Shown piece by piece: positions 1 to 25,566 of a stretch of DNA of 39,515 nt. Within the stretch, counting starts at the first letter, position 1. The number at the start of each line of letters is the position of its first letter. The position numbers and the translations under genes are program-made. The notes below the pieces were generated by a model. It was not told where the DNA came from. It made no database searches and worked only from the letters and a program-made list of their open reading frames with translations. Source of the DNA: Cyanobacteriota bacterium (GTDB taxonomy: Bacteria > Acidobacteriota > Vicinamibacteria > Vicinamibacterales > UBA2999); contig JAIEMQ010000053.1 of the NCBI GenBank assembly GCA_019752015.1, positions 1 to 39,515 on the forward strand, given 5' to 3'.

Positions 1-80
1 TCAGCGCGTCAGCCTGCTGCATGCCGGCAGAATAGGCTCAGGCGCTCCAAAAGTAAACTTTATTTTGTGGTAACGCCATA

Positions 81-960
81 GTGCCGCTGCCGCTCGGCGG
101 CGCCGGCGCGAAGTTCGCCCCGGTTCCGGATCGCGCAGAGCGATCGGCCGAAGATCCGCGAATGTTCACCGGACATCTCCGGCTGATGGGGGCGGGCGCG
201 TGGCAGGTCCGCGTCGCGGCGAGCGGCGATCGCGGTGAAGGCACGCTGTCGGTGCCCGTGCCGGCGCTGCCGCAAACCACGTTGGGCATGAGCGCGCCGA
301 TCCGCGCGATCCTGTTCGTGTTCATGCTGCTGCGCGGGCAGCGGGTTCGTCGCGATCGCGCCGGCGATGGCCAGGGAATCGAAGCTCGGCGCCGGCGAAG
401 GCTTCGACGCGCGCGCCAAACGTCGCGGACGAATCGCCGGCGCCATCGCGGCCGCTGTCGTTGGCGGGAGCATCGTTCTCGGCAACATGTGGTAGGCGAT
501 CGAGGCCGATTCGTACGCGCGCTATGTGTTCAAGCCGCTGACCATGGCGCCTGCGGTGTCGGCAGACAACCGGCTGCGCCTGACGCTGAGCGACCCCGGT
601 TGGATCGCGCCGCGCCGCCTCGAAGACTTCATTCCCGATCACGGGCATCTCATGCACCTGTTCGTGATGTCGCCGGGCTGGATCGTTTGTGGCACTTGCA
701 TCCGGATGAAATCCAGATGGGCACATTCGAACAGCGTCTGCCGGCCGTGCCGGCGGGCAAGTACGCGCTGTTTGCCGATCTCGTTCACGGCACCGGGCTG
801 CTCGAGACGCTGACCGCTGAACTCGACACCGCTGCGGTGAGCGGCGAGCTGTTGATCGGCGACGACAGCGCGTGGTCTGCGGATCAGCAGTCGACAACGA
901 CGAAAATCAGCTGGGTGCGCGACAATACGCCGCTGGTGCCAAAGCGTTTGATGACATTTA
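81..960 (+). pseudogene. Decayed membrane protein gene (heavy-metal/FixH-like type), frameshifted
   Basis: Pieces of one protein are scattered over the plus-strand frames. Positions 81-330 read as a soluble segment (MFTGHLRLMGAGAWQVRVA) followed by the start of a membrane helix. After a frameshift near 330-345 a second frame continues with FVAIAPAMA, a basic stretch and another hydrophobic segment ending GNMW, then an in-frame TAG at about 493. The same frame resumes (YARYVFKPL, DHGHLMHLFVMSPG) to about 680, where another shift restores the first frame (LDRLWHLHPDE, PAGKYALFADLVHGTG, DDSAWSAD, VRDNTPLVPKRL). The pieces collinearly rebuild one protein, so this is decay rather than chance. The His-rich HLMH / HLHP pattern resembles membrane proteins found near metal-resistance genes. 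The true N-terminus is missing: stop codons lie just upstream and the window begins there. The family assignment is from memory and tentative. Confidence 0.65.
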
Positions 961-1193
961 CACCAATCAGCGATTTCATCCAGCAGGGACCCGACGAAAG
1001 CCAGCCCGCGACGGAGAAGAGCGAGGCGTGGATACTCTTCGATGAGGTCAATCGCTGTATATCTGCGCGCGCAACTGGGACAGCCATCCCGAGCGCGAAG
1101 TCGTCAACGAGCTGCGCCGCGACAACGGCAACATCCTCGGCAACGAGGACATCACGTTCGCGATCAAGGCGACGCGACTCATCCGGTTTTAAC
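961..1193 (+). pseudogene. Fragment of a DUF5916 / CBM9-like outer-membrane protein N-terminus
   Basis: The frame of the preceding pseudogene runs without a stop into PISDFIQQGPDE, PATEKSEAW and ILFDE, which resembles the N-terminal CBM9-like domain of DUF5916 proteins common in Acidobacteriota. A frameshift near 1060 moves the match to another frame, where LYICARNWDSHPEREV, NELRRDNGNILGNEDITF and a stop at 1191-1193 follow. In intact homologues this domain precedes a long beta-barrel, so more than 80 percent of the gene is missing. The in-frame join between the two unrelated remnants suggests a deletion that fused them, followed by further indels. Confidence 0.55.
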
Positions 1194-1216
1194 GGCATGT
1201 ATGTTCGACAACGCGC

Positions 1217-1239
1217 GGGCCGTTCCGTGGGAACGGCCC
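1217..1239. terminator. Perfect 10-bp hairpin upstream of qhpG
   Basis: GGGCCGTTCC and GGAACGGCCC form a perfect 10-bp stem with a 3-nt loop (GTG). No T-tract follows, so if it ends transcription it does so without a classic U-run. It separates the pseudogene remnants from the qhp cluster and could equally act as a 5' mRNA stabiliser for qhpG. Confidence 0.45.
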
Positions 1240-1297
1240 CACCGGCTTCGATGAGCAACGCTCAATTTCCCCCGTTTTCGTTGATACGCTCCACTAA

Positions 1298-2674
1298 ATG
1301 GCGATTGTGGTTCTCGGCGGCGGCCCCGCGGGTGCGACCGCAGCGTTACTGCTCGCGAAGTGGGGCCATGAGGTCCAGCTGATCACGCGTCCGCCGGTCA
1401 GCCGCGGCCTCGCGGTGTCGTTGCCGCCAAGCTGCGGCAAGCTGTTCGACGCGATCGGGATCGCCGATGCGATCGAGCGCACCGGCTTTCCGCGATCCAC
1501 CGGCAACACCGTGTGGTGGGGCAGCGGCGATCCGCGCGTCGAGATGTTCGCAAATGGCGCGTACGGCTGGCAGGTTGATGTCGACGCGCTGGCCACCGTG
1601 ATCTTGAGGGAAGCAATCACGGCGGGCGTTGCCGTTGAAGAATCAACTGTCCGCGATCAACCCGATGGCTTCGTGCTCGATTGCACCGGCCGCGCCGGCG
1701 TGATCGCGCGCGCGACGCGGCTCCGCCAGTTGCCGGAAGGACCGCGAACGGTGGCGCTCGTCGGCGTGTGGTGGCGCGACGGCGGCTGGCCGGTGCCGGA
1801 CGACTCGCACACGCTGATCGAATCCTACGGCGACGGCTGGATCTGGTCGGTGCCATCGGCGCCGGGCCTGCGGCATATCTCGGCAATGGTGGATCCGCAG
1901 CGATCCGAGCTCACGCGCGGCGGATCGTCGGCCGATGTCTATCGTGACGAGATCGCGAAGACGCGCGTGTTCAGCGCCATGACCGCGGACGCGTCGATGA
2001 TCGAAGGGCCGCGCGGTTTTGATGCGTCGCCCTATCGCGCGAGCGCATATGCGGGCGAGCGGTGGCTGCTCGTGGGCGACGCCGGATCGTTCGTCGATCC
2101 GTTGTCCTCCGCCGGTGTGAAGAAGGCACTCGCCTCGGCGTGGCTGGCGGCGGTCGCGGTTCACACGGCTGAAAAACGTCCGTCGATGCGCGCCGACGCG
2201 TTCGAGTTTTTCTCGGCCCGCGAGCACGAGATCGAGCAACACCTGTCGCGGGAAAGCCGCAGCTTTCTTGCCGCCGCCGCCGAGAGTCACACACGTCCGT
2301 TCTGGGACGAACGCGCCGATGACGCCGGAGACCGTCTCGCCGAAAACGAAGATATCCGGCGGGCCCTTGACCAGCTGCGCTCCCGTGAAAACTGGCAGCC
2401 GGTCGTCAGCCCGTCGATGTCGATTCAGCCGCGGCCCCTCATCAGGGGCCACGAAATCGTGCGGGAGCCGCACGTGGTCTCGACGGACTACCCGCGCGGC
2501 GTCCGATACGTCCGGGCGATCGACATGGTCGCGCTCGTGGAGCTGGCGCCCGTCACTCGGCAAGTCGCTGATCTCTACGAAAGCTATGTGCAACGCATGG
2601 GTTCGGCGCCCTTGCCCGACTTCCTGTTCGCGGTCGCGACGGCGGTTGCGCGCGGGTGGCTTGTGGCAGAATGA
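1298..2674 (+). CDS. qhpG: FAD-dependent monooxygenase for CTQ biogenesis (QhpG-like)
   Basis: A 458-residue flavoprotein of the halogenase / geranylgeranyl-reductase-like group. Seen: an N-terminal Rossmann motif GGGPAGATAALLL (about residues 7-19) and a second FAD motif GDAGSFVDPLSSAG (about 260-273). In known qhp operons, QhpG is the flavoprotein that hydroxylates the future CTQ tryptophan of QhpC, after QhpD has made the thioether links. Immediate linkage to qhpA, D, C and B supports that role here; by itself the sequence could also be a generic FAD oxidoreductase. In Paracoccus qhpG lies downstream of the structural genes, while here it leads the cluster. The ATG at 1298 gives a start right at the FAD motif; no convincing Shine-Dalgarno is visible before it. 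Confidence 0.85.
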   Translation: MAIVVLGGGPAGATAALLLAKWGHEVQLITRPPVSRGLAVSLPPSCGKLFDAIGIADAIERTGFPRSTGNTVWWGSGDPRVEMFANGAYGWQVDVDALATVILREAITAGVAVEESTVRDQPDGFVLDCTGRAGVIARATRLRQLPEGPRTVALVGVWWRDGGWPVPDDSHTLIESYGDGWIWSVPSAPGLRHISAMVDPQRSELTRGGSSADVYRDEIAKTRVFSAMTADASMIEGPRGFDASPYRASAYAGERWLLVGDAGSFVDPLSSAGVKKALASAWLAAVAVHTAEKRPSMRADAFEFFSAREHEIEQHLSRESRSFLAAAAESHTRPFWDERADDAGDRLAENEDIRRALDQLRSRENWQPVVSPSMSIQPRPLIRGHEIVREPHVVSTDYPRGVRYVRAIDMVALVELAPVTRQVADLYESYVQRMGSAPLPDFLFAVATAVARGWLVAE

Positions 2675-2683
2675 CGGCCAAGG

Positions 2684-2729
2684 AAGGCTCAGAAAGAGCC
2701 CAGGGCCGCAGAAGGCACAGAAAGCTCAG
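2684..2729. repeat. Phased ~9-nt array between qhpG and qhpA
   Basis: Five units of about 9 nt follow each other (AAGGCTCAG, AAAGAGCCC, a 10-nt unit, AAGGCACAG, AAAGCTCAG). The array starts 9 nt after the qhpG stop and ends 6 nt before the qhpA ATG. It is more degenerate than the other islands in this window but has the same architecture and placement. Confidence 0.5.
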
Positions 2730-2735
2730 ATCAAA

Positions 2736-4457
2736 ATGCCATTCGTGAATCGAGCTCTCACAGTTACCTTCGTTTTCTTCGTCGCTACTGCCGCCAATGT
2801 TGCCGGCCAGGCGCCGCAGCCGACCGCCGCGCCGACGGCGAAACCGGAAGAAGGCATCCCGGTCACGGACGCAACGGTGCAAAAAGCGTGCGGCTCGTGT
2901 CATCGGCCCGACGACAAGGGCCAGATGTCGCGCATCTCGTTCATCCGCACGACGCCGGAAGGGTGGCAGACGATCATCCAGCGCATGGCGGCGCTCAATG
3001 GCCTGAACATCGAGCCCGCGACGGCGCGGCAGGTGGTCAAGTACCTCGCCACCAATCACGGACTCGCGCCGGAAGAAGCGAAGCCGGCGGCGTGGGAAGC
3101 GGAGCGGCGGCTGATCGATTTCAAGTACACCGCGAACTCCGACGCGGAGAGCACGTGCAACAAATGCCATTCGCTCGGCCGCATCATTTCGCAGCGGCGC
3201 ACCAGGACGGAGTGGGATCTGCTGATCGCCACGCATCGCGGGCTGTATCCGCTCGTCGACAACCAGGCGTTTCGCCGCGGCGGTCCGCCGCCGCGCGATG
3301 CCGCCAGCGACGGACGTCCGCCCGACAACCGTCATCCGTTCGAGAAGACGATTGCGCACCTGTCGAGCACGTTCCCGCTGAAAACGCCCGAGTGGACCGC
3401 GTGGTCGGCGAACATGCGCCCGGCGCGTCTCGATGGCACGTGGGCGCTGACCGGCTGGGAGAACGGCAAGGGCGCGATCTACGGCCGCGTGACGATCACG
3501 GCCGGCTCATCGCCGGATGAATTCACGACCAACGCGACTTACCGCGTTGCGCGAACGGGTGAGACCATCACGCGCACCGGCCGCGGCATTGTCTACACGG
3601 GATTCCAGTGGCGCGGCGCTTCGTCGACGCAGGCCGCCGACTCGTCGATGCGTGAAGTGATGATGGTCGATCGCAACTGGCGGTCGATGGAAGGCCGCTG
3701 GTTCAACGGCGGCTACGACGAGATCGGCATGGACGTGAAGCTCGAGCGCGTCGGCAACGACACACGCGTGCTCGGCACCGATCGCACCGCGCTCAAGCAG
3801 GGCAGCACCGCGCAGGAGCTGAAGATCTACGGAACGAATCTCGGATCGCTGCGGCCGGCCGATGTCGATCTTGGCCCCGGCATCACGGTATCGCGCGTCG
3901 TCAGCTCCACGCCGGAACTGGCGACGGTTGCGGTGGACGTGGCCGCGACGGCCGCTGTTGGCGCGCGTGATCTGTTCGTCGCCGGCGCATCACGGCCGAA
4001 GGCGCTCGCGGTCTACGACAAGATTGACACCATCAAGGTCAAACCTGATTGGGCGATGGCGCGCGTCGGCGGCGACACGTTCCCGAAAATGCTCGCGCAG
4101 TTCGAGGCGTGGGGCTACAGCAACGGCGCCGACGGCAAGCCCGATTCACCCGACGACATCGAGCTCGGCATCGTCGACGCGAATTGGACCATGGAGGAAT
4201 ACGCGGCGACCTATAACGACGATGACATCAAGTTCGTGGGAGTGTTGAACGAAGCGACCGGTCGCTTCACGCCGAACGTCGACGGCCCGAATCCCAAGCG
4301 CAGCGGCGAACGCAACAACGTCGGCGACGTGTGGGTGGTGGCGAAGGTGCTCGGCGATTCGGTCAGCGGCAAGCCCGCGCCGACACTGCGTGCGCGCGCG
4401 CATCTGCTCGTGACGGTGCCGCTCTATATGCGTTTCGATCCGGCGAGAGGCCAATGA
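2736..4457 (+). CDS. qhpA: Quinohemoprotein amine dehydrogenase alpha subunit (diheme cytochrome c)
   Basis: 573 residues, periplasmic. It oxidises nothing itself but carries electrons from CTQ in the gamma subunit through two c-type hemes to an external acceptor (cytochrome c or azurin in studied species). Seen: a Sec signal peptide (MPFVNRALTVTFVFF, cleavage near AGQA), two heme-attachment motifs CGSCH (C52, C55, H56) and CNKCH (C141, C144, H145), then a long beta-rich region matching domains II-IV of the family (IPT/Ig-like segment around YGTNLGSLRPADV). The ATG at 2736 is chosen because it directly precedes the signal peptide; the open frame extends far upstream but only as a shadow of qhpG. 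The stop overlaps the qhpD start as ATGA, so translation is probably coupled. No Shine-Dalgarno is seen; the phased array occupies that position. Confidence 0.93.
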   Translation: MPFVNRALTVTFVFFVATAANVAGQAPQPTAAPTAKPEEGIPVTDATVQKACGSCHRPDDKGQMSRISFIRTTPEGWQTIIQRMAALNGLNIEPATARQVVKYLATNHGLAPEEAKPAAWEAERRLIDFKYTANSDAESTCNKCHSLGRIISQRRTRTEWDLLIATHRGLYPLVDNQAFRRGGPPPRDAASDGRPPDNRHPFEKTIAHLSSTFPLKTPEWTAWSANMRPARLDGTWALTGWENGKGAIYGRVTITAGSSPDEFTTNATYRVARTGETITRTGRGIVYTGFQWRGASSTQAADSSMREVMMVDRNWRSMEGRWFNGGYDEIGMDVKLERVGNDTRVLGTDRTALKQGSTAQELKIYGTNLGSLRPADVDLGPGITVSRVVSSTPELATVAVDVAATAAVGARDLFVAGASRPKALAVYDKIDTIKVKPDWAMARVGGDTFPKMLAQFEAWGYSNGADGKPDSPDDIELGIVDANWTMEEYAATYNDDDIKFVGVLNEATGRFTPNVDGPNPKRSGERNNVGDVWVVAKVLGDSVSGKPAPTLRARAHLLVTVPLYMRFDPARGQ

Positions 4458-5905
4458 CCAGTATCAGCCTTTGCGAATTTCATCCGTTCGAGGCCGCCGG
4501 CCGCCGGTTCCTGTACCTGGTGCCGAGCGCGGCGGTGTTCGCGCTGGATCAGTGCTCGTCGGCGGTGATCGATTCGCTGGTGGATGGTCCGCGGCCGCTC
4601 GACGACCTGAGGCGCGAGCTCGAAGGGCGCTTCGAGATTGAAGAGGTCACGGACACGATCGCGGAGTTGCAGCGAATACGCGCGCTCGGCGAGTCGTCTG
4701 TCCGGCCCTCTCCGCCGCCGAAAGTCATTCCGCTGAAGCCGGTGCCGCTGCAGACGCTGGTCGTCAACGTCACCAACCAGTGCAACCTGGCCTGCACCTA
4801 TTGCTACGAATACGGCGAAGACAAGATCGTCGACACCGAGAACGGCAAGCAGCCGAAGTTCATGACCGAGGCGACGGCGCGCGAGGCCATCGAGTTCGCG
4901 CTGCGCGAGTCGCGGGACAATCCGCGGGCGCACATCACCTTCTTCGGCGGCGAGACGTTGATGAACTTCAACGTGCTGCAGTCGACGATCGCGTATGCGA
5001 GACGGCGCGCCGCTGAAGTGGGGAAGGACATCGACTTCAGCCTGACCACCAACGCCACGCTGCTGCGTCCGGACGTGATCGAGTTCCTCGCGACTGAGCG
5101 CGTCGGTGTAACGATCTCGATCGACGGGCCCGAGGAGATGCAGGACAAGTTCCGCGTCTTCAAGAACGGCATGGGCAGCTACGACGTCGCGGCTCCGAAG
5201 ATCAAGGCGCTGATCGCGCGTCACCGCTCGCGGCCGATCGGCGCGCGCGTGACGCTGACGAAGCAAACGCTGGATGTGCGCAAGATCTATCGCCACCTCA
5301 CCGAGGAGATGGGCTTCTGGGAAGTCGGCTTCGCGCCGGTGACGACGGCGCCGGGACGTGATTACGCCATCGCCGACGGCGGCTTCGATCACCTGCTCGC
5401 CCAGTTCCGCGATCTGGCCAACGACTTTTTGCAGGCGGCGCTGCAGAATCGCCATCACGGCTTCTCGAATATTCGAGAGACGCTGCAGGAGCTGCATCAC
5501 GGTCATGCGAAGGCGTATCCGTGCGGCGCCGGGCTCGGCCTGATGGGCGTGTCCACCGGCGGCCACGTGGCTCTCTGCCATCGCTTCGCGGGCTCCGACG
5601 ATCATTCGCTCGGTAACGTGCGCGACGGCGTGTCGTGGGAGAAGCAGCAGGATTTCCTGCAGACGCATCACATCAACAGCAAGACCGACTGTTCGACCTG
5701 CTGGGCGCGGCCGATCTGCGCCGGCGGCTGTTATCACGAAGCGCACACGCGCTACGGATCGACGGAGCGTCCCAACCTGCACTACTGCGAGTGGATTCGC
5801 GGCTGGACGCACACCTGTCTCGAGATCTACGGTGAGATCGCGGAGAAGAATCCCGATTTCCTGCGGCAGTTCGATGATGAAGAGGTTCCGGAGAAAGTCT
5901 CATGA
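4454..5905 (+). CDS. qhpD: Radical SAM/SPASM maturase that forms Cys-Asp/Glu thioethers in QhpC
   Basis: 483 residues, cytoplasmic. In known systems QhpD installs Cys-to-Asp/Glu thioether cross-links in the gamma-subunit precursor. Seen: an N-terminal segment (about 1-90) resembling a PqqD/RRE peptide-binding fold; the radical SAM motif CNLACTYC (C110, C114, C117) followed by FFGGETLMN; and a C-terminal SPASM region whose cysteines for auxiliary Fe-S clusters are visible in AYPCGAGLG, ALCHRF, CSTCWARPICAGGC and HYCEW. The ATG at 4454 overlaps the qhpA stop by 4 nt. The gene ends with ATGA overlapping qhpC, so maturase and substrate are translationally coupled. The length fits the family. Confidence 0.93.
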   Translation: MTSISLCEFHPFEAAGRRFLYLVPSAAVFALDQCSSAVIDSLVDGPRPLDDLRRELEGRFEIEEVTDTIAELQRIRALGESSVRPSPPPKVIPLKPVPLQTLVVNVTNQCNLACTYCYEYGEDKIVDTENGKQPKFMTEATAREAIEFALRESRDNPRAHITFFGGETLMNFNVLQSTIAYARRRAAEVGKDIDFSLTTNATLLRPDVIEFLATERVGVTISIDGPEEMQDKFRVFKNGMGSYDVAAPKIKALIARHRSRPIGARVTLTKQTLDVRKIYRHLTEEMGFWEVGFAPVTTAPGRDYAIADGGFDHLLAQFRDLANDFLQAALQNRHHGFSNIRETLQELHHGHAKAYPCGAGLGLMGVSTGGHVALCHRFAGSDDHSLGNVRDGVSWEKQQDFLQTHHINSKTDCSTCWARPICAGGCYHEAHTRYGSTERPNLHYCEWIRGWTHTCLEIYGEIAEKNPDFLRQFDDEEVPEKVS

Positions 5906-6258
5906 AGCATCTGACACCGGTGAATCGCAAGGCCGCGAAAGTTGAAGCGGTGACCAAAGACGTCGTCGCGTTGCAACAAGGTGGACCTCCGCAACAGCCC
6001 GAGCCGCCGCACATCCCCAACGGATGTTCACTGGTCTTCTCGCCCGGGTGGGAAGCCGATCGCACCGGCGGCACCGCCGGTCTCTGCCAGCCCGTCGAGC
6101 GCGATCTGTTCGACTGCCACATGGGCTGCTTCTGGCCGGCGCAGGTGCCCGATCAGTTGAACCATGCGCCTGACTGGACGGCGAAGTGCGCCGCCGCGCA
6201 GAAGGACTGGCGCAAGATCGATCTGATCTTCCCGGCCGACGAGAAGAAGAAGGGTTAA
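5902..6258 (+). CDS. qhpC: Quinohemoprotein amine dehydrogenase gamma subunit precursor (CTQ peptide)
   Basis: 118 residues, the catalytic subunit made as a leader-containing precursor (RiPP-like). Residues 1 to about 38 form a polar leader without a Sec signal, and the core begins near NGCSLVF. Aligning the spacing with the Pseudomonas putida gamma subunit (Cys7-Glu16, Cys27-Asp33, Cys41-Asp49, Cys37-Trp43) gives C42-E51, C62-D68, C76-D84 and the CTQ pair C72-W78; every spacing matches exactly. CTQ oxidises primary amines to aldehydes. An extra Cys96 is not part of these four links. The leader is expected to be removed by QhpE and the product exported by QhpF. The ATG overlaps the qhpD stop. 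The cross-links are inferred from conserved positions, not shown. Confidence 0.94.
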   Translation: MKHLTPVNRKAAKVEAVTKDVVALQQGGPPQQPEPPHIPNGCSLVFSPGWEADRTGGTAGLCQPVERDLFDCHMGCFWPAQVPDQLNHAPDWTAKCAAAQKDWRKIDLIFPADEKKKG

Positions 6259-6262
6259 AACC

Positions 6263-7414
6263 GTGACGGGGTTTTTCAGAGCCGCGACACAGACGCCGCG
6301 CCTGGCGGTCGTCGCCGTGACAGTAGCCTGCCTAGCCGTAGCCTCTGGCGTAGGCTGGGCGCAAAAGCCGCTGACGCCGAACGGCGGCGATCAGCTGATG
6401 TACATCGGCACCTATGCCGGCACCATCCAGGTCTTCGACGAGACGACGGAAGCGAAGGTCGCGGACATCAAGCTGCAGACCGGCATTCCTCGCGCGCTGA
6501 CGCTGTCGCAATCGCGATCGAAGTTCTACGTGCTCGATGCCAGCAACGAGAAGATCGAGATCGTCGACATCCCGACGCGGACCTCGCTCTCCACGTTCAC
6601 GCTCAGCGAAGGCAACAAGAAGGTCCGCATCCGCGGCTACCAGGTCGATCCGCTGGAGCGCTTCCTGCTGCTGCTGACCCGCGCTTACACGAAGCAGATC
6701 GATCGCTATGAGATCGGCGACATCAAGCTGGAGTTCTACGATCTCGCGCAGAAAAAAATCACGCGGACCATTCCGTGGCCGCGCGGCGAAGAGCGTGAGA
6801 ACGTCAACATCCGCTTCTCGCCGGACGGGAAGCTCCTGTATTTCTTCGGCGAAGACGTGTTGATCCTCGAGACCACGAACTTCACCGAGGTCGATACCTG
6901 GCCGCTCAGCCGCCCGATCGAGCCGGGCCTTGGCCGCGTCAATTTCGGATCCGTGGACGACTTCAACGACGACCCGGGTTTCTTCACCGGTTTGTTTACC
7001 ACGCAGGATCCGATTCAGAACCGTCGCATCATGAACATCGGCCGCGTCAATCTCGTGGCCAAGTCGATCGATCTCACGCCGATCGGTCCGGCCGAAGGCG
7101 TCAGCTTCGCGATGGCCCGCGATCGCCAGCGCGCGTGGGGACTGGTGCAGGGCGGCGGCCAGTCACCGGCGCAGCCGATCGGACGATTTGAATTCTGGGC
7201 GTTCGACGTTGCCCAGCGGAGACTCTTGAGCCGCACGCAGTTCGATGGCCGTCCGCGCATGGCGCTGCGCGTCTCATCCAACGGCCGGCTGCTCTATATC
7301 TATCAAGCCGGCGCCACCATCGATGTCTACGACGCGCAGTCCTACAAGAAGCTGCGCACCATCGAGATGAACGCGGACCAGACGACGACGCTCTACATCC
7401 TGCCGCGCAAGTAG
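6263..7414 (+). CDS. qhpB: Quinohemoprotein amine dehydrogenase beta subunit (beta-propeller)
   Basis: 383 residues, periplasmic. A Sec signal peptide is clear (hydrophobic core VVAVTVACLAVASGVGW, cleavage near GWAQ), followed by a repeated YVTN/WD-like beta-propeller pattern (for example YIGTYAGTIQVFDETT, KFYVLDASNEKIEIVD, LLYIYQAGATIDVYDA). In the QHNDH heterotrimer this propeller covers the gamma subunit and helps form the active-site cavity. The start is GTG at 6263, 4 nt after the qhpC stop, with a purine-rich GAAGAAGAAGGG stretch just upstream (overlapping the qhpC end) as ribosome-binding site. A generic surface propeller would be the alternative call, but position and length fit QhpB. 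Confidence 0.92.
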   Translation: MTGFFRAATQTPRLAVVAVTVACLAVASGVGWAQKPLTPNGGDQLMYIGTYAGTIQVFDETTEAKVADIKLQTGIPRALTLSQSRSKFYVLDASNEKIEIVDIPTRTSLSTFTLSEGNKKVRIRGYQVDPLERFLLLLTRAYTKQIDRYEIGDIKLEFYDLAQKKITRTIPWPRGEERENVNIRFSPDGKLLYFFGEDVLILETTNFTEVDTWPLSRPIEPGLGRVNFGSVDDFNDDPGFFTGLFTTQDPIQNRRIMNIGRVNLVAKSIDLTPIGPAEGVSFAMARDRQRAWGLVQGGGQSPAQPIGRFEFWAFDVAQRRLLSRTQFDGRPRMALRVSSNGRLLYIYQAGATIDVYDAQSYKKLRTIEMNADQTTTLYILPRK

Positions 7415-7645
7415 CCGCGCCGCCTGCCAGCCCACCGAGTTCAGACCCAATCGCTGAGCTCGACACGCTCGCCGAGGGCGCGGGAAAAGCCGCCGAGAGC
7501 CACCCGGAGCACGCAGACTGAAAACAGCATCCTGCTTGCGGCTGCGCCTTGTTGGTTGGTTGATTTCAAGTGACTCGGCAGGGCGCGATCCGGCGAAGCC
7601 GGTCTTACCGTGACCCTGAAGGCGTCGAGCAGTGTGGCGAACCGA
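7415..7645. other. Gene-free spacer between qhpB and vapC
   Basis: 231 bp between the converging ends of qhpB (+) and vapC (-). The only structure I see is a small hairpin at 7590-7602 (CCGGC, loop GAA, GCCGG) without a T-tract. There is no convincing reading frame and no phased array. Confidence 0.5.
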
Positions 7646-8059
7646 TCAACGGTCGATCAAATCACGAGGGCGGCAAGCGATATCCGGAAAGGCCTTCAGC
7701 AGCGCCTTGTCGAAGGTCAGCAGCGGGCAGCCGGAGCGCTCAGCCAGTTCCACGAACAGCGTGTCGTACACGGACACCCCCGACTCTATGGCCCGCAACA
7801 GCGAGCCTTGGCAGAGTGTGGTCGTCGCGATCGACTCGATGCCTAGTCGGCGCGCCAATCCGAGGCGCACTGGCCCCTCGGCGGCCGGCAGGACACCCGC
7901 TCGCACCGCCATCCACACCACGCTGGTCAGTTCCGCTTCCCAATGAGCCGGCGCGAGCGGCGCGGCGACTCGTTCGAAGCACGCGCGCGATTCATCGATG
8001 AACGCCTCGGTGCCGAGCAGCAGGTAGGCGACGACGTTCGTGTCAATCACCGCCTTCAC
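7646..8059 (-). CDS. vapC: PIN-domain toxin ribonuclease (VapC family)
   Basis: 137 residues. Seen: the four acidic positions of a PIN nuclease, D6 in AVIDTN, E43 in HWEAE, D99 in VYDTLF and D117 in TFDKAL. VapC toxins are Mg-dependent RNases that cleave tRNA or other RNA when freed from antitoxin. The ATG (8057-8059) overlaps the vapB stop (ATGA), the usual coupled antitoxin-toxin order. The module lies antisense in the middle of the qhp cluster, between qhpB and qhpF. Confidence 0.9.
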   Translation of the reverse strand: MKAVIDTNVVAYLLLGTEAFIDESRACFERVAAPLAPAHWEAELTSVVWMAVRAGVLPAAEGPVRLGLARRLGIESIATTTLCQGSLLRAIESGVSVYDTLFVELAERSGCPLLTFDKALLKAFPDIACRPRDLIDR

Positions 8060-8283
8060 GGTCGTCCGACGGCCATCCAGGCATCGACCTCGGACGGCGT
8101 TGGTCTTCGAGTCTGCGCCTGCCAGCCGGCCTCGATCTGGTCGAGGACCGCGCGGCGCTCCGCCACGTACCCTTCCAGCAGGTCCCGCACCTCCTGCTCC
8201 ATGGATCGGTTATGACGCTTGGCCAGCGCCTTCAGCGACTGCACCACCTTCGCCGGGACATTGCGCACGGTAATCGTCGGCAT
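8056..8283 (-). CDS. vapB: Ribbon-helix-helix antitoxin (VapB/FitA-like)
   Basis: 75 residues. The N-terminus MPTITVRNVPAKVVQSLKAL has the beta-strand/helix pattern of FitA-type ribbon-helix-helix proteins; the C-terminal tail with Trp (AGWQAQTRRP, AWMAVG) would be the VapC-neutralising part. On the minus strand a good Shine-Dalgarno (AGGAGA) sits 6 nt before the ATG. Immediately beyond it are paired TGCTAGCA palindromes, a likely site for autorepression by the VapBC complex. Confidence 0.9.
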   Translation of the reverse strand: MPTITVRNVPAKVVQSLKALAKRHNRSMEQEVRDLLEGYVAERRAVLDQIEAGWQAQTRRPTPSEVDAWMAVGRP

Positions 8284-8293
8284 TACGGTCTCC

Positions 8294-8312
8294 TGCTAGC
8301 ACCATGCTAGCA
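8294..8312. promoter_or_regulatory. Paired palindromes, probable VapBC operator
   Basis: TGCTAGCA occurs twice (8294-8301 and 8305-8312) separated by CCA. Each half is itself a perfect palindrome, so the pair is both a direct and an inverted repeat with 11-bp centre spacing, close to one helical turn. It lies 11 bp upstream of the vapB start codon, where ribbon-helix-helix antitoxins bind. Because qhpF starts 82 bp away in the other direction, VapBC binding could also influence qhpFE transcription. Confidence 0.65.
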
Positions 8313-8394
8313 TCAAGCGGCCGTCGCACCAACCGCTTGCGGCGAGCGGCCCGCAATGGCATGCTGAGCCGCGGGCCGGCCAATTCAGGGACTG

Positions 8395-10122
8395 ATGAAC
8401 CGACAGGTTTTTCGCTACCTCGTGCCCTACAAGCGGCGCCTGATTCTGGTTCTGGCGATCAGCCTGATCAGCACAGCGACGACGCTGGTCATTCCGTACC
8501 TCTCGAAGGATCTGATCGATCACGCGTTGATTGGACGCGATCTCGAGGCGCTGCGCCGCATGGTCTACTGGTTCATCGGGCTCGGCATCCTTGGATTCAT
8601 CCTGAACGTGACGAGCGGCCTCCGCTATACGCGGGTGTCGGCGGAGATCCTTTTCGACATGCGGCTGTCGCTGTATGCGCACTTGCAGCGGCTGTCGCCG
8701 CGCTTCTACGCGCGTACCCGACTCGGCGACATCGTGTCGCGTCTGAATAACGACATCAGCGAGATTCAGCGCGTCGCCGCCGAAGCGGCCCTCGCCTGGG
8801 TCGGCAACGTCCTCTTCCTGATCGGCAGCCTGGTGATGATGGTCTGGCTCGACTGGCGGCTGGCGCTGATCGCGCTGGCGCCGCTCCCCATCAGCCTCAT
8901 CGCGCTCGCGTATTACCGCCGCCGTCTCGAAAGCCGCATTGCCGATCTGCGCCAGCGCAGCGCCGACATCGGCAGCTTTCTGATCGAAACGCTGCAGGCG
9001 ACTTCGCTCGTCGTCGCGTCGAACGCGCAGCAGCGAGAGCAGGACCGCTTTCGCGGCCTCAACGGCGCGTTCATCGAGTCATTGATGCGCATGCAGCGCG
9101 TCACGTATTTCGCGGGAGGCCTGCCGGGAACCGTATTGTCCATCGGCTCCGCGATCGCGTTCTTCTACGGCGGCCTCCGCGTGATCGAAGGTACGCTCAC
9201 GCTGGGGACGATGGGCGCGTTCCTCGCGTATCAGATGCGCGTGTTTGCTCCCGCCCAGGCGTTGATGGGACTGTGGGCGAGCCTGGCCACCGCAAAGGTG
9301 TCGTGGACGCGCGTGCTGGAAATCCTCGACGCGAAGATCGATGTCGTGCAGGCCGCCGCTGCGAAGGCAATCGAAAATCCGCAGGGCGAGATTCAGTTCG
9401 AAGCGGTGTCACTCGGCACCGATCGGCAATCGCGAGTGCTCGACGAGGTGTCGTTCACCGCGCGGCCGGGACAGATCGTCGCGCTCGTCGGCGGCAGCGG
9501 CGTCGGCAAATCGACGATCGCGTATCTGGCGGCGCGACTGCTCGATCCGGACACCGGAGTGGTCCGCTTCGACGGACAGGATGTTCGGGCGCTGACGCTG
9601 GAGAGCGTGCGCAGGCATGTCGTGCTCGTCGAGCAGGAGCCGACGCTCCTTCACGCCACCGTTGAGGAGAACATCCGCTACGTCCGCCCGTCGGCCACCG
9701 CGGACGATGTCAGGAAGGCGGCGCAGGCCGCGGGCATCTCGCAGTTCATCGACGCCCTGCCCCAGGGCTACGCGACGATCGTCGGCGAACGTGGATTGGC
9801 GGTGTCGGCGGGAGAGCGGCAGCGCATTGCGCTGGCGCGCGCGTTCCTCGCGGACCCGGCGGTGCTCGTGATGGATGAGCCGACGGCGGCGCTCGACGCG
9901 ATCGCGCAGCGCCAGATCATCGAAGGCTCGCGCGTGGTGATGCGTGGACGCACCACCTTGTTGATCACTCATCGGCGCGAAGTCGCGATGGCGGCGGATC
10001 ATGTCGTGGTCCTCGACGGCGCGCGCGTTGTCGGTCAGGGCAGTCCGCGCGAGCTGGCCGCGCGGTCGGCGGCCTTCGCGAGGTTGTTCGAGATTGATCG
10101 CGCCGCCGGCGTCACCGGATGA
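8395..10122 (+). CDS. qhpF: ABC exporter (half-transporter) of the qhp cluster
   Basis: 575 residues, inner membrane. An N-terminal six-helix exporter domain (about 1-310) is fused to an ATPase. Visible motifs: Walker A GGSGVGKST (366-374), signature VSAGERQ (470-476, a variant of LSGGQ), Walker B VLVMDEP (490-496) and switch His in LLITHRRE. In qhp operons QhpF is the exporter proposed to carry the cross-linked gamma subunit to the periplasm, since QhpC has no Sec signal. It overlaps qhpE by ATGA, which supports the assignment; alone it would be called only a multidrug/lipid-type exporter. The start has a fair Shine-Dalgarno (CAGGGAC). Confidence 0.87.
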   Translation: MNRQVFRYLVPYKRRLILVLAISLISTATTLVIPYLSKDLIDHALIGRDLEALRRMVYWFIGLGILGFILNVTSGLRYTRVSAEILFDMRLSLYAHLQRLSPRFYARTRLGDIVSRLNNDISEIQRVAAEAALAWVGNVLFLIGSLVMMVWLDWRLALIALAPLPISLIALAYYRRRLESRIADLRQRSADIGSFLIETLQATSLVVASNAQQREQDRFRGLNGAFIESLMRMQRVTYFAGGLPGTVLSIGSAIAFFYGGLRVIEGTLTLGTMGAFLAYQMRVFAPAQALMGLWASLATAKVSWTRVLEILDAKIDVVQAAAAKAIENPQGEIQFEAVSLGTDRQSRVLDEVSFTARPGQIVALVGGSGVGKSTIAYLAARLLDPDTGVVRFDGQDVRALTLESVRRHVVLVEQEPTLLHATVEENIRYVRPSATADDVRKAAQAAGISQFIDALPQGYATIVGERGLAVSAGERQRIALARAFLADPAVLVMDEPTAALDAIAQRQIIEGSRVVMRGRTTLLITHRREVAMAADHVVVLDGARVVGQGSPRELAARSAAFARLFEIDRAAGVTG

Positions 10123-10793
10123 TTCGTATCGCGGTGATCGACAGCGGCGTCCATGCATCGCATCCGCACGTCGGCGGCGTCAGCGGCGGCATCGGCATCG
10201 ACGAGCACGGAACTCTGCACCCCGACTACGTCGATCGGCTCGGCCATGGCACCGCGGTCGCGGCGGCGATTCGAGAGAAGGCGCCGAACGCCGAGCTGTT
10301 CGCGATCAAACTGTTCGATCGCGAGCTGGCCGCGACCGGCAAATCACTGGTGGCGGCGTGCGAATACGCGCTCACGCTGCCGGCTCACATCGTCAATCTC
10401 AGCCTCGGGACGAAGAATCCGGAACATGAACCCGCGCTGCGCGACATCACGGCTCGCCTGAAGCAGTTCAAAACGATCGTGATTGCCGCAGGTGAACAGG
10501 GCGGTGTCCGGTGGCTGCCGGGATCGCTGCCCGGCGTGTGGAGCGTCACGCTCGACTGGACGGTGCCGCGCGACACGATGCAGATCGAGCGCTTGAATCA
10601 ACACGGCGGATCGTTTCGCGCTTCGGGATTGCCGCGGCCGATTCCGGGCGTGCCGCCGGAGAAAAATCTGAAGGGATTGAGTTTCGCGGTCGCGAATGTG
10701 ACGGGAATTGTTGCGAGGCTGCTCGCGGACGATCCGGCGGGCGATCCCACAGCCGTCGTCACGCGAGCATTCGAGCGAGGCCGCCGAAATTAG
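10119..10793 (+). CDS. qhpE: Subtilisin-like leader protease of the qhp cluster
   Basis: 224 residues without a signal peptide or propeptide, so cytoplasmic. Seen: the S8 catalytic triad as D8 (AVIDSGV), H43 (LGHGTAV) and S188 (GLSFAVA). Known QhpE removes the leader of QhpC after cross-linking. The short length, near 220 residues, fits QhpE rather than secreted subtilases. Odd: the position that aligns with the oxyanion-hole Asn of subtilisin (AAGN) reads AAGE here (E126). The ATG overlaps the qhpF stop. Its own stop overlaps the stop of the opposite-strand permease by 4 bp. Confidence 0.88.
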   Translation: MIRIAVIDSGVHASHPHVGGVSGGIGIDEHGTLHPDYVDRLGHGTAVAAAIREKAPNAELFAIKLFDRELAATGKSLVAACEYALTLPAHIVNLSLGTKNPEHEPALRDITARLKQFKTIVIAAGEQGGVRWLPGSLPGVWSVTLDWTVPRDTMQIERLNQHGGSFRASGLPRPIPGVPPEKNLKGLSFAVANVTGIVARLLADDPAGDPTAVVTRAFERGRRN

Positions 10794-13258
10794 TCTCGGC
10801 GAAGTGCAGCGAGTGGATCCAGCCGCGTCGCGCGCTTCGCCGGAACGAAGCAGGCAATGCTCGCGACCACGGCCAGCAGCACCGCGATGCCGCCGATCGT
10901 GATCGGATCGCCCGCCTGGTTCTGAATCAGCAGTTGCGTCCGCGAGAACAGCGTGCCGACGCCGAACGCGCCGACGATGCCGAGCGTCAACCCGATGCCC
11001 AGCTGAATCATCGAGCGGCGCAGGAACAGCCAGGCCACTTCATTGCCTTGCGCGCCGAGCGCCATACGCACACCGATCTCCTGGGTGCGCTGCGACACCG
11101 CGTACGCCGTGACCGCATAGAGTCCGACGGCCGACAATACCAGCGCGATCAGCGCGAAGATCGCGAACATGGTGCCGAATACCCGGAACGGCCATCGCGA
11201 CGCGGCCAGCTGCGCGTCGACAGTGCGGATGTTGAACAACGGCAGATCCGCGTCGATGGCGCGCACTTCCTCGCGCAGGATGGGCGTCATCGCGTTCGGA
11301 TCGCCGGCGCTGCGCACGAGCAGGTTCATGAAGCCGCGCGGGTCGAGCCGGAAGGGCAGGTAGGCGATCGGATCCGGATCGGGCAGCTGAAAATCACGCT
11401 GACGGAGATTCGGCACGATGCCGGCGATTGTCGCGGTCAGCGACAGCGGGATGCCGCCCTGCGGCGGGGCGCCGCCCTGTAGATCGATCGATAGCGTAAT
11501 GCGGCGGCCGAGCGGATCTTCGTTCGGGAAGTGCAATGCGACAAATCGCTGATTGACGATCGCGACCGGCTCGCGGCCGGTCATGCCGTCTTCGTCGGTG
11601 AACTCGCGTCCGCGCTGCAGCGATAGGCCGATCGTCTTGAAATACCGCGGATCGACGGTGAGCATGGTGACGTTCGGCGCCTGCTGCCCCTGGTTGAGCG
11701 GCTTGCCCTCGATCTCGAGCTTGCGCAGGAATCCGCCCTGCAGCGGAATGTTGCTCGTGACGGTGACGTTCTCGATCTTCGGGTTCGACTTCAGCCGCTC
11801 CTGGAGACGCTCGTAGAAGGCGAGCCGCTGCTCGAGCGACGGGTACTTGCGATCGGGCAACGCGAGCGTGGTGGTGAGCAGCTTCGACGTGTCGATGCCG
11901 AGGTCGAGCCGATACATAGTGAGGAAGTTCCGCATCATGAAGCCGGCGCCGGCGAGCAGGACGACCGTCAGCACGAGCTCCGCCACCATCAACACGCCGG
12001 TCATGCGCCGGGCGCGTACACCGGCGGTGCCGCTGCGGCCGCCCTCTTTCAGGATTTCGTTCACGTCGGCCTTTGACGCATGCAGGGCCGGGGCCAGGCC
12101 GAAGATGATGCCGGTGCCCAGGCACACCAGCGCAAAGAACCCGATCACGTTCGCGTCCATCGTGAACTGGATCCAGTAGGGGCGGCCCAGCGCCGGATCG
12201 CCAGTGGCACGATCGAACAGCCGGATGCCGGCCGCCGCGATGCCAATGCCGCCGAGGCCGGCGATGATCGACAGCAGCACGCTTTCCAGCAGCAGCTGAC
12301 GAACGATCCGCCACCGCGATGCGCCCAGGGAGACGCGCACGGAAATTTCGCGCGCGCGATTCGTCGCCCTCGACAGCAGCAGGTTGGCGACGTTGGCGCA
12401 GGCGATCAGCAAGACGAACGCGACCGCGCCCATCAGCGAGAGGAACACCACGCGAATCGGTCCGCCGTTCTGTTGTTCATTGAACGTCTGCACGCGCGCC
12501 TGGATGTCCTTGTTCGTCTCGGGGTTCTCCTCCTCGATCTTTCTCGAGATATTGATCAGCTCGGCCTGGCCCTGCGCGCGGGTGACGCCCGGCGCAAGGT
12601 GTCCAAACGTCTGCAGCGGACGCGCGTTGCGCTTTTGTTCCATCAACCCGGTCATCTGATGGAGCGGCAGCCAGACGTCGGTGTTGAAGGGGAAGCGGAC
12701 ACCTTCGTCCATCACGCCGATGATCGTCGACGGGTTGTCGTTGATTCGCACCGTCCTGCCGATCACGCCGGGATTCTTGCCGTAGCGATTGACCCACACG
12801 GTGTGCCCGATCAAGGCGACCGACGGCGCGCCGGGCTTGTCGTCGTCCGGGACGAAGTCGCGGCCGATCACCGGCCGCATGCCGAGCGCCCCGAACGTGT
12901 TGGCCGACATGAACGCGCCGTTGAAACGCTCGGGCGGCTGGCCCTCGTCGCTGACATTCGCGACCGTGCCGCTGTAGGCGCCGAACGCATCGAACGCCCT
13001 GGTGTTCTCGCGCCAGTCGCGGTAATCGAGGTACGAGACGCCGCGGCCCTGGCTGCGCGTCCGATCGAAGGAATCGATCGCCATGGTTCGATCGGGGTCG
13101 GCAATCGGCAAGCCTCGAATCAACACCGCGTTCACGAAGGTGAACACCGTGGCGGTGACGCCGATTCCAAGGGCGAGGGCGACCGCCGCCACCAGCGAGA
13201 ACCATTTGTCCTTCAGCAGCAGGCGACCGGCAAATCGCAAATCTTCCCAAAGACCCAT
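10790..13258 (-). CDS. ADOP-type ABC permease (MacB periplasmic core plus FtsX domains)
   Basis: 822 residues. Architecture seen: an N-terminal cytoplasmic stretch (MGLWEDLRFAGRLLLKD), TM1, a MacB-like periplasmic core (GVSYLDYRDWRE, FGALGMRPVIGRDF), three TM helices of an FtsX domain near the middle, a second core domain and a second FtsX block near the C-terminus (QRTQEIGVRMALGA, ending LDPLAALRRD). This duplicated permease without a fused or adjacent ATPase is typical of the acidobacterial 'orphan' permeases. The substrate cannot be told. The ATG at 13258 has a strong Shine-Dalgarno (GAGGAG) on the minus strand. It converges on and overlaps qhpE by 4 bp. Confidence 0.9.
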   Translation of the reverse strand: MGLWEDLRFAGRLLLKDKWFSLVAAVALALGIGVTATVFTFVNAVLIRGLPIADPDRTMAIDSFDRTRSQGRGVSYLDYRDWRENTRAFDAFGAYSGTVANVSDEGQPPERFNGAFMSANTFGALGMRPVIGRDFVPDDDKPGAPSVALIGHTVWVNRYGKNPGVIGRTVRINDNPSTIIGVMDEGVRFPFNTDVWLPLHQMTGLMEQKRNARPLQTFGHLAPGVTRAQGQAELINISRKIEEENPETNKDIQARVQTFNEQQNGGPIRVVFLSLMGAVAFVLLIACANVANLLLSRATNRAREISVRVSLGASRWRIVRQLLLESVLLSIIAGLGGIGIAAAGIRLFDRATGDPALGRPYWIQFTMDANVIGFFALVCLGTGIIFGLAPALHASKADVNEILKEGGRSGTAGVRARRMTGVLMVAELVLTVVLLAGAGFMMRNFLTMYRLDLGIDTSKLLTTTLALPDRKYPSLEQRLAFYERLQERLKSNPKIENVTVTSNIPLQGGFLRKLEIEGKPLNQGQQAPNVTMLTVDPRYFKTIGLSLQRGREFTDEDGMTGREPVAIVNQRFVALHFPNEDPLGRRITLSIDLQGGAPPQGGIPLSLTATIAGIVPNLRQRDFQLPDPDPIAYLPFRLDPRGFMNLLVRSAGDPNAMTPILREEVRAIDADLPLFNIRTVDAQLAASRWPFRVFGTMFAIFALIALVLSAVGLYAVTAYAVSQRTQEIGVRMALGAQGNEVAWLFLRRSMIQLGIGLTLGIVGAFGVGTLFSRTQLLIQNQAGDPITIGGIAVLLAVVASIACFVPAKRATRLDPLAALRRD

Positions 13259-21193: not shown

Positions 21194-21994
21194 ATGTCCC
21201 GGACTCTCAAGTTAACGATCGCTTACGACGGTACCAACTATGCCGGCTGGCAGCGCCAGGCCAACGCGATCAGCATCCAGCAAGTCCTCGAGGACGAGAT
21301 CGATGCGATCGTCGGCGCGCACAATCCGCTGAATGCCGCCGGGCGTACCGATGCCGGCGTCCATGCCGCCGCGCAAGTCGCAAGCATCACCATCGATCAT
21401 CCAATTCCCACTGACGAACTGCTGCGCGCACTGAATGCGCGTCTCAAGGCCGGCGACATCCGCGTCCGATCGATCGAGGAAATGCCCGACCGATGGGACG
21501 CGCGCATCTTCGCGAAGGGCAAGACCTATCGATATGCCATCTGGAACGGCCAGCAGCCGAGTCCGTTCCTACGGCACGTCGTGTGGCATGTGCCGCACAC
21601 ACTCGAGATCGATCGCATGCAGCGCGCCGCGCAGGCGTTAGTCGGCGAACATGATTTCGTTGCATTCAAGGGCCGCGGCACCGACGTGCTGACGACCATC
21701 CGCCGCGTGCTGTCGGCGGACATCGTGGAGATGAACATCCACACCGATGAACCGATCGCGCTGTCGCCTCTTGCCGAAGGCACGGAACCGAACGGCCGCC
21801 TGTTGCGCTTCGAGATCAGCGGCACCGGCTTTCTGCGCCACATGGTGCGCACGATCGTCGGAACGCTCGTCGACATCGGCCGCGGCAACATGGACGTCGA
21901 CGCCATGCGCGCGATTATCGAGTCAAAGGATCGGTCGAAGACGGGGCAGACGGCCCCCGCACAGGGCCTGATGCTTTGGAAAGTATCGTATTGA
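21194..21994 (+). CDS. truA: tRNA pseudouridine(38-40) synthase
   Basis: 266 residues. Isomerises U38-U40 of tRNA anticodon arms. Seen: KLTIAYDGTNYAGWQRQ at the start, the catalytic Asp D53 in GRTDAGVHA, FAKGKTYRYAIW, and FEISGTGFLRHMVRTIVGTL at the C-terminal half. The ATG at 21194 is fixed by the family N-terminus; the only sequence before it is the phased array, with no clear Shine-Dalgarno. The last 80 bp overlap the 3' end of the HupE-like gene on the other strand. Confidence 0.94.
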   Translation: MSRTLKLTIAYDGTNYAGWQRQANAISIQQVLEDEIDAIVGAHNPLNAAGRTDAGVHAAAQVASITIDHPIPTDELLRALNARLKAGDIRVRSIEEMPDRWDARIFAKGKTYRYAIWNGQQPSPFLRHVVWHVPHTLEIDRMQRAAQALVGEHDFVAFKGRGTDVLTTIRRVLSADIVEMNIHTDEPIALSPLAEGTEPNGRLLRFEISGTGFLRHMVRTIVGTLVDIGRGNMDVDAMRAIIESKDRSKTGQTAPAQGLMLWKVSY

Positions 21995-23282: not shown

Positions 23283-23304
23283 GGTAATCGGTCCCAAGTA
23301 TACT
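23276..23304 (+). promoter_or_regulatory. Sigma70-type promoter of the NHL-repeat gene
   Basis: TCGACA (23276-23281), a 17-nt spacer and TATACT (23299-23304) match the housekeeping consensus at 5/6 and 5/6 positions. Transcription would start near 23311, giving a leader of about 36 nt with GAGGGGAG before the ATG at 23347. The -10 box sits inside the palindrome AGTATACT, so a minus-strand -10 for the divergent HupE-like gene overlaps it. Confidence 0.6.
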
Positions 23305-23346
23305 GGCGCCCGCTTTAAGGCGTGTTCTTCAGAGGGGAGCCGGGGG

Positions 23347-24766: not shown

Positions 24767-25555
24767 ATGTCTCTCGATCAGCTTCTGGAGTGGATTCCCG
24801 CGGGCGGGCCTGAAGAGGCGCTGGCCCGGCAGATCGAGTTCGATCGGCTGCCGCGCCACATCGCCATCATCATGGATGGCAACGGCCGCTGGGCCGGCGA
24901 GCGACACCTGCCGCGAGTCGAAGGGCATCGCGCCGGCGTCGATGCGGTTCGCGACGCCATTGAAACCTCCGCGCGCCTCGGCCTCGAAGTCCTGACGCTC
25001 TACGCGTTCTCCGTCGAAAACTGGAAGCGTCCCGCCGCCGAAGTGAGCACGCTGATGATGCTGCTCAAGCGCTACCTCGGCCTCGAGCTCGAGACGCTGA
25101 TGCGCAACAACATCCGCTTCAACGTGATCGGCCGCGTCGAAGCGCTCGCGCCCGATGTCCGCACCGAGCTGCTCGACGCGGAGCGCAAGACGGCGAAGAA
25201 CACCGGGATGCTCTTCAACATCGCGCTCAATTACGGCGGCCGCACCGAGATCATCGACGCCGCGCGGCGCGCGATTGAATCCGGAGTCAAGCCCGAGGAT
25301 CTCGATGAAGTTCGTTTCGCGAGCCTGCTCTACACCAGCGGCCAGCCCGATCCTGATCTGCTGATCAGGACCAGCGGCGAAATGCGCGTCAGCAATTTCC
25401 TGCTGTGGCAGATCGCCTACGCCGAGATCTGGGTGACCGACACGCTGTGGCCCGACTTCCGCTGCCGCCACCTGCTCGAAGGCGTGCTCGCGTATCAAAA
25501 ACGCGATCGCCGATTTGGCGGGATCACGCCGCCCGTGCCGGCGGGTGTCCGGTGA
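24767..25555 (+). CDS. uppS: Undecaprenyl diphosphate synthase (cis-prenyltransferase)
   Basis: 262 residues. It makes C55 undecaprenyl diphosphate from FPP and IPP for peptidoglycan and LPS carriers. Seen: HIAIIMDGNGRWA with catalytic D37, FSVENWKRP, and the C-terminal DLLIRTSGEMRVSNFLLWQ and SELYF-equivalent YAEIWVTDTLWPDF. A GAAGGAG purine run lies about 18 nt before the ATG, too far for an ideal Shine-Dalgarno. First gene of the uppS-cdsA-dxr-rseP block, a gene order conserved across many bacteria. Confidence 0.95.
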   Translation: MSLDQLLEWIPAGGPEEALARQIEFDRLPRHIAIIMDGNGRWAGERHLPRVEGHRAGVDAVRDAIETSARLGLEVLTLYAFSVENWKRPAAEVSTLMMLLKRYLGLELETLMRNNIRFNVIGRVEALAPDVRTELLDAERKTAKNTGMLFNIALNYGGRTEIIDAARRAIESGVKPEDLDEVRFASLLYTSGQPDPDLLIRTSGEMRVSNFLLWQIAYAEIWVTDTLWPDFRCRHLLEGVLAYQKRDRRFGGITPPVPAGVR

Positions 25556-25566
25556 TCAAGGCTTTT

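Follow-up and report, generated by a model that had tools for sequence, protein, structure and literature searches.

A predicted quinohemoprotein amine dehydrogenase operon of Acidobacteriota with an additional cysteine in its gamma subunit

Quinohemoprotein amine dehydrogenase (QHNDH) allows bacteria to feed on amines and depends on cysteine tryptophylquinone (CTQ), a cofactor formed from amino acids of the enzyme itself. The question raised here is whether a contig assigned to Acidobacteriota encodes a complete and working QHNDH system, and in which respects such a system would differ from the studied proteobacterial ones. The stretch analyzed comprises 39,515 nucleotides of contig JAIEMQ010000053.1 (assembly GCA_019752015.1) and is hereafter called the window. 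Scans with NCBIfam and Pfam revealed seven intact qhp genes on the plus strand, spanning 1298-10793 in the order qhpG-A-D-C-B-F-E. The original prediction, made from the sequence alone, had proposed these gene identities, the completeness of the set, its order on the strand and its coordinates, and all of this was borne out by the family scans together with a profile and a fold of QhpB. We predict that the seven genes form a complete QHNDH operon. Based on the family matches, the residue conservation, the QhpB fold, the gene overlaps, the gene order and the trees of QhpD and RpoB, we consider it very probable that this is a working operon, belonging to a branch that is carried by Acidobacteriota and Gemmatimonadota.

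The seven qhp genes and their products

The products of qhpA, qhpD and qhpC score above the cut-offs of their families. Gene qhpA (2736..4457) encodes the diheme alpha subunit with a signal peptide (TIGR03908, 498 bits, cut-off 274); the protein has four QHNDH alpha Pfam domains and two CxxCH heme sites and matches 1jmx_A with an expectation (E) value of 3.8e-70. Its start was moved from 2268 to 2736, which is the most likely position, the signal peptide being judged by eye. Gene qhpD (4454..5905) encodes the radical SAM/SPASM thioether maturase with a CxxxCxxC motif (TIGR03906, 577 bits, cut-off 453). In this case the start was moved from 4331 to 4454, where the DNA reveals an ATGA overlap with the qhpA stop. 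The gamma subunit precursor, with a leader of about 35 residues, is encoded by qhpC (5902..6258; NF037958, 124 bits, cut-off 50) and matches the solved chains 1jmx_G and 1jju_C. The other four genes are qhpG (1298..2674), encoding a flavin-dependent peptidyl-tryptophan dihydroxylase, qhpB (6263..7414), encoding the beta-propeller beta subunit with a signal peptide, qhpF (8395..10122), encoding an ABC exporter that is proposed to carry processed QhpC to the periplasm, and qhpE (10119..10793), encoding a putative subtilisin-like leader protease (Peptidase_S8). In NCBIfam, QhpF matches only general ABC-transporter models, and its assignment is based on the Pfam domains ABC_membrane and ABC_tran and on its place in the operon. 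ATGA overlaps are found at three junctions, A/D, D/C and F/E.

The QHNDHs of Paracoccus denitrificans (1jju/1pby) and Pseudomonas putida (1jmx/1jmz) are built from the three subunits that are also encoded in the window, with a diheme alpha subunit, a propeller beta subunit and a gamma subunit that carries three Cys-Asp/Glu links and CTQ, and they use the maturation proteins D, F and G, likewise encoded in the window, and E, to which the putative protease of the window would correspond. The catalytic steps are transferred from this work, while gene identity, order, residue conservation and phylogeny are read from the window and its relatives. By analogy, QhpC would be made with a leader, and the radical SAM enzyme QhpD would tie its cysteines to aspartate and glutamate residues. 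QhpG would hydroxylate the tryptophan of CTQ, QhpE would cut off the leader and QhpF would export the product to the periplasm. There, processed QhpC is expected to join diheme QhpA and propeller QhpB, and CTQ would be completed. The mature enzyme would oxidize primary amines to aldehydes, with the electrons leaving through the two hemes. Compared to the studied enzymes, the lineage of the window differs in a cysteine and an aspartate of QhpC (C96 and D107), a divergent beta subunit and the lack of a detectable adjacent AraC gene; its leader of about 35 residues is also longer than the 28 residues of the studied QHNDH (PMC7876137).

Several observations weigh against a working QHNDH operon. 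For QhpG (203 bits, cut-off 240, NF049967), QhpE (145 bits, cut-off 165, NF049966) and QhpB (58.5 bits, cut-off 223, TIGR03907) the correct model ranks first, yet each score stays below the cut-off. In a PDB search with QhpG, the known QhpG structure 7ctq came sixth (E 3.6e-16), after five flavin-halogenase-type chains. Neither an aldehyde dehydrogenase nor an amine regulator was recognized among the scanned reading frames of the window, and a toxin-antitoxin pair located between qhpB and qhpF could weaken expression of qhpF and qhpE. Regarding the low scores, QhpG of the window groups with the QhpG proteins of its own lineage in a tree, and its assignment also rests on its place in the operon. 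QhpE contains DSG, HGT and SFA motifs, recognized by eye, and its operon place fits. For QhpB, a family profile made from the window and 63 relatives (out of 76 available) found 1jmx_B and 1jju_B, with the YVTN propeller 1l0q scoring above both. The AlphaFold model of QhpB reached a predicted local distance difference test (pLDDT) score of 92.6, and the first two PDB folds retrieved with it were 1jju_B and 1jmx_B. Profile and fold name the same two chains, and QhpB is assigned as the seven-bladed propeller beta subunit.

The fold alignment gave an identity of only about 15-17% between QhpB and 1jju_B or 1jmx_B. This divergence below the family cut-off, together with the lack of an AraC regulator nearby, would be in line with a CTQ enzyme of the same fold that uses a substrate or an electron partner unlike those of the studied n-butylamine-type enzymes. 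We regard this as possible, albeit doubtful, since none of the CTQ, heme and crosslink residues has been lost and a different substrate does not follow from divergence by itself.

The gap between qhpB and qhpF measures 983 nt in the window versus a median of 67 nt across 87 loci. It holds a minus-strand gene pair that the original prediction had left unmentioned. The two genes overlap by four bases and encode a putative PIN-domain toxin of the VapC/FitB type (7646..8059, GTG start, PF01850, 40 bits) and a FitA-like ribbon-helix-helix antitoxin (8056..8283, PF22513, 59 bits). Both matches exceed their cut-offs, and we assign the pair at 7646-8283 to the FitAB/VapBC-type toxin-antitoxin systems. 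Upstream of qhpG, bases 1..1297 of the plus strand contain frame-broken remnants of two genes. One resembles a 506-residue protein (L003:2709-4226) that has no Pfam match, and behind it comes a fragment of a gene for a DUF5916/CBM9 protein. The pieces, which fall into different frames, match the related locus L003 (47-68%) and the loci L005, L018 and L111 (58-84%), and both genes are intact in relatives. The remnants may be pseudogenes or may reflect assembly indels at the contig end. The enlarged gap and the broken upstream neighbors could be taken as signs of a decaying, non-functional operon that was split by the toxin-antitoxin pair. We consider decay very improbable, since all seven frames are intact, QhpC is fully conserved and other loci also have inserts at this junction: 10 of the 87, the window included, exceed 500 nt, and a Gemmatimonadota locus carries a PIN gene there according to Pfam (L062:9343-9750, plus strand).

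Other inserts were seen at the same junction. A second Gemmatimonadota locus (L072) has, as judged by eye, nearly the same plus-strand sequence as the PIN gene of L062. The opposite strands suggest that the PIN insertions in the window and in Gemmatimonadota were independent events. Three further Gemmatimonadota loci (L060:13003-13940, L070:13003-13942 and, similarly, L081) contain two tandem genes for small, secreted-looking proteins of about 140 residues between qhpB and qhpF; one of these (L060:13491-13940) had no Pfam match.

Gene order, host and descent of the operon

The original prediction had described the order G-A-D-C-B-F-E as rearranged and different from that of the studied systems. 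This view did not hold. We compared the best 80 of 160 relatives retrieved by a QhpD scan, which are titled Acidobacteriota (44), Gemmatimonadota (35) and Woeseiaceae (1), many of them cut by contig ends. In the genes they hold, 79 of the 80 loci fit the order of the window; all seven genes are present in 43 of them, in 38 within 11 kb. The sole misfit (L032) has a second qhpA downstream. The order count took only plus-strand qhpG, and the strict figure is 78/80, with qhpG inverted downstream in L063. Consequently, G-A-D-C-B-F-E is the standard order of this lineage, and the window is not rearranged.

The same order also occurs in Proteobacteria. A Leisingera aquaemixtae plasmid (L105) carries G-A-D-C-B-F-E with an AraC gene in front, and an L. 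thetidis plasmid (L106) has the same order with a hypothetical protein in the place of E, where the E profile reported none. In contrast to the window, the Leisingera clusters lie next to genes for regulators of the AraC and helix-turn-helix types and for an aldehyde dehydrogenase, and among the records listed the Leisingera QhpD proteins share about 32-39% identity with QhpD of the window over 63-91% of its length. Five annotated plasmid clusters from Proteobacteria have the core A-D-C-B in common; in a sixth, from Paracoccus contaminans (L107), hypothetical proteins occupy the place of B, and two further plasmid records carried no annotation over the qhp stretch. Other clusters differ in the outer genes: Paracoccus pantotrophus has a divergent G followed by A-D-C-B-E-F, Cupriavidus has F-E-G in front and Pseudomonas nitroreducens F-G. 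The G proteins of Leisingera and Paracoccus are annotated as tryptophan 7-halogenase or NAD(P)-binding and match the G profile with 74-85 bits. For Methyloversatilis universalis FAM5, a published study gives a methylamine-induced cluster qhpRADCBFE, with the same A-D-C-B-F-E, a regulator in front and qhpG unnamed; its table labels the subunits differently from Nakai (PMC5023235). The Leisingera clusters, the Methyloversatilis cluster and the related loci rule out that the gene order is novel. Variation of order and strands is likewise described for qhp genes, which occur in more than 1300 species (PMC7876137).

The original prediction had also found no adjacent AraC-type regulator gene qhpR. 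None was detected in the window, nor beside its relatives in the lineage: a profile of eight plasmid regulators, run over 108 loci, returned those eight and two weak matches (L063 and L061). In 58 of the 80 loci, the sequence extended 3 kb or more beyond the first qhp gene on its upstream side. The lack of a recognizable adjacent AraC gene appears to be general in the lineage, with the reservation that distant AraC proteins could escape the profile. Since base 1 of the window is base 1 of its contig, and everything upstream of the gene remnants lies off the contig, the window itself says nothing about a regulator further upstream. We take QhpR as accessory and not as defining for a qhp system.

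To place the host, RpoB of the assembly was compared in a tree of 18 genomes (four of 21 genomes gave no match, and two second pieces of included genomes were left out). The protein shares 95% identity with RpoB of L003 and falls into a six-row set with L006 (support 100/99) among Acidobacteriota. L003, L004, L005 and L018 are titled Acidobacteria, Acidobacteriota or Acidobacterium, and L006 is titled Vicinamibacterales. This marker gene supports the acidobacterial host proposed earlier and places the assembly near Vicinamibacterales. Small subunit ribosomal RNA had no match in the assembly, so that a 16S placement was not obtained. The locus titled Woeseiaceae, a family of Gammaproteobacteria (L051), was dropped as a proteobacterial comparison, for its RpoB groups with acidobacterial L047 (99/98); a phylum search around its genome, G331, gave the acidobacterial genomes G319 and G320.

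Is the operon a recent import? The presence of qhp genes on plasmids of Paracoccus and Leisingera shows that they can move, and a proteobacterial cluster might have been transferred horizontally into a single acidobacterium. A tree of 49 QhpD rows argues otherwise. In this quick tree, supported only by the Shimodaira-Hasegawa-like approximate likelihood ratio test, the window and the members of its genus form a group (97) within a set of 11 acidobacterial rows, L006 among them (99). Nine Gemmatimonadota rows stand together (98), while six canonical proteobacterial rows, all from plasmids, lie apart on a long branch (100); an Embleya row also forms a long branch. QhpD scores above the cut-off in 7 of the 8 other genomes of the genus of the window. 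The sole transfer suggested by the tree runs the opposite way, out of Acidobacteriota: the row of Novosphingobium RL4 is placed amid acidobacterial ones (100). The phylogeny thus gave no sign of a recent import, which we judge highly improbable.

In both Acidobacteriota and Gemmatimonadota, the operon gives the impression of being old and of having been passed on mainly by vertical descent. QhpD exceeded the cut-off in 12 of 40 relatives searched, the genome of the window included, and in 20 of 297 acidobacterial genomes. The earlier claim that the locus extends CTQ-dependent amine use to Acidobacteriota stands with respect to the studied enzymes. It fails with respect to the databases, where operons of this kind are frequent in both Acidobacteriota and Gemmatimonadota. 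For CTQ enzymes, the focus shifts away from the Proteobacteria that have been studied and towards these two phyla of wide distribution. A genome of the same genus (G008) contains a second, divergent pair of QhpD-like and QhpG-like genes (L202:9173-12188). The QhpG-like protein is closest to Embleya, the QhpD match has one in-frame stop, and the QhpC profile found nothing beside this pair.

A fifth cysteine in QhpC

The gamma subunit of the window contains the residue pairs for the three crosslinks, C42-E51, C62-D68 and C76-D84, and the CTQ pair C72-W78. These numbers correspond to the published pairs (PMC8172795) shifted by 35, with the spacing seen in 1jmx_G. In an alignment of 105 QhpC rows, in which eight loci are present twice, all eight canonical crosslink and CTQ residues are conserved, the only exception being an undetermined letter at position C62. 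Besides these, we found a further cysteine, C96, and an aspartate, D107, in every one of the 99 non-canonical rows (88 different sequences, Novosphingobium included) and in none of the six canonical rows, a split that counts as one phylogenetic event. Both residues are invariant in a 57-row alignment (A1; 57 of 70 eligible rows), whereas the solved gamma chains 1jmx_G and 1jju_C have alanine at the first position and glycine or glutamine at the second. A third residue, D71, accompanies C96 and D107 in the 99 non-canonical rows and is alanine in L197, which lies outside those 99.

A disulfide between subunits was considered as a role for C96. QhpA conserves only its four heme cysteines (93/93 rows) and QhpB lacks any conserved cysteine (97 rows, 61 of which have none at all; the count covers stretches matched by phmmer and includes no canonical rows). 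An inter-subunit disulfide is unlikely given this cysteine content. Most likely, C96 either takes part in a further thioether made by QhpD or plays some other structural role at a buried position. It is plausible that QhpD makes a fourth thioether, and a Cys-Asp link would be the simplest chemical use of the residue, with either D107 (11 residues on) or D102 (6 residues on, like C62-D68) as acceptor. That QhpD indeed installs this fourth link via C96 to one of these two aspartates is a tentative proposal, to which we give clearly less than an even chance. The AlphaFold model of QhpC (pLDDT 37.7) was too poor for a C96-D107 distance. A mass spectrum could test whether QhpD makes four crosslinks. 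A literature search found nothing on a fifth QhpC cysteine, with key papers by Nakai beyond its reach. The fifth cysteine appears to be the new feature of the window; among known sequences, neither its gene order nor its phylum is a novelty.

Operons without qhpG and neighboring genes

Three related qhp operons that lack qhpG contain a two-gene cassette instead (L125:12430-14395, L126:12639-14662 and L197:7901-9888). It encodes a peptidase-U32 protein related to UbiU (U32a) and a partner with four cysteines (U32b); the pair does not occur in the window. In L197 the order is D-C-U32b-U32a-F-E; A and B are absent there and are found at another locus of that genome, in the arrangement A-D-C-B (L205; genome records G806 and G711 were taken as one genome because their size and hits agree). 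In a profile comparison, U32a and UbiU aligned over 276 columns with a probability of 99.3%. Three UbiU cysteines, C169, C176 and C193, which we take to bind an iron-sulfur cluster, are kept in all seven U32a proteins, while UbiU C232 is not. The two U32a proteins scanned with the UbiU model scored 89-96 bits, below the cut-off of 440. U32b has four invariant cysteines in 7/7 sequences, and C39 and C193 of UbiV line up with two of these. Its layout resembles that of UbiV (PMC6747719); none of the seven had an NCBIfam match, and hhalign gave no support against UbiV or against U32a. Compared to UbiU/UbiV of E. coli, U32a is related to UbiU, and three of the seven pairs sit in qhp operons.

Among 396 acidobacterial genomes, seven contain close relatives of U32a (E up to 1e-50), and each of the seven genomes is positive for QhpD. 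Six of these belong to the 297-genome sample, where 6/6 versus 20/297 genomes are QhpD-positive (hypergeometric P 4e-8, not corrected for ancestry; two of these genomes share a genus). In four of the seven genomes the U32 pair lies away from qhp and QhpG is present. Among the others, a QhpG search (E up to 1e-25) gave no match in G312 and only a 91-bit match in G806, both at least 98% complete, and G284 keeps a doubtful 183-bit QhpG-like match on a long branch outside the QhpG clade of the lineage. A similar 181-bit match was seen in G327, whose locus (L028) has no qhpG. A U32 search in Gemmatimonadota, run without a positive control, gave no match in 298 genomes at E 1e-50.

At the QhpG limits given above, 5 of 24 genomes or records had no match, as did G686. 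Five of these six (G216, G252, G267, G686 and G323) have a short QhpG-like flavoprotein, which is missing from G312 and G806. On a deep acidobacterial branch, such a protein of about 340 residues is encoded beside qhpE (L122, L123:15175-16203, L124). A Novosphingobium plasmid has one between B and F (L104:11595-12953) and a full QhpG elsewhere. No U32 pair occurs in the qhp loci L122-L124 and L009, which belong to genomes of this group other than G686. We read the U32 pair as a candidate replacement for QhpG that would hydroxylate the CTQ tryptophan without oxygen. We hold it somewhat short of an even chance that different proteins can take over the hydroxylation of tryptophan across the branch, namely QhpG as in the window, the short QhpG-like flavoprotein or, in operons without qhpG, the U32 pair. 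That the branch represents a second kind of CTQ amine dehydrogenase with its own maturation chemistry, combining a fourth thioether at C96 with exchangeable hydroxylation, seems rather unlikely to us. The U32 pair in QhpG-less operons makes protein tryptophan hydroxylation without oxygen testable. A literature search found no paper naming both UbiU and quinohemoprotein.

Downstream of the operon, the minus strand encodes an ADOP-type duplicated permease (10790..13258; TIGR03434, 842 bits, above the cut-off), which we regard as flanking and outside the operon. A HupE/UreJ-like protein is encoded at 21915-23354. Genes for undecaprenyl diphosphate synthase, a CdsA-type transferase, Dxr and an M50 protease with PDZ domains follow in a row at 24767-29080, and since this row resembles a core chromosome, the contig is probably chromosomal.

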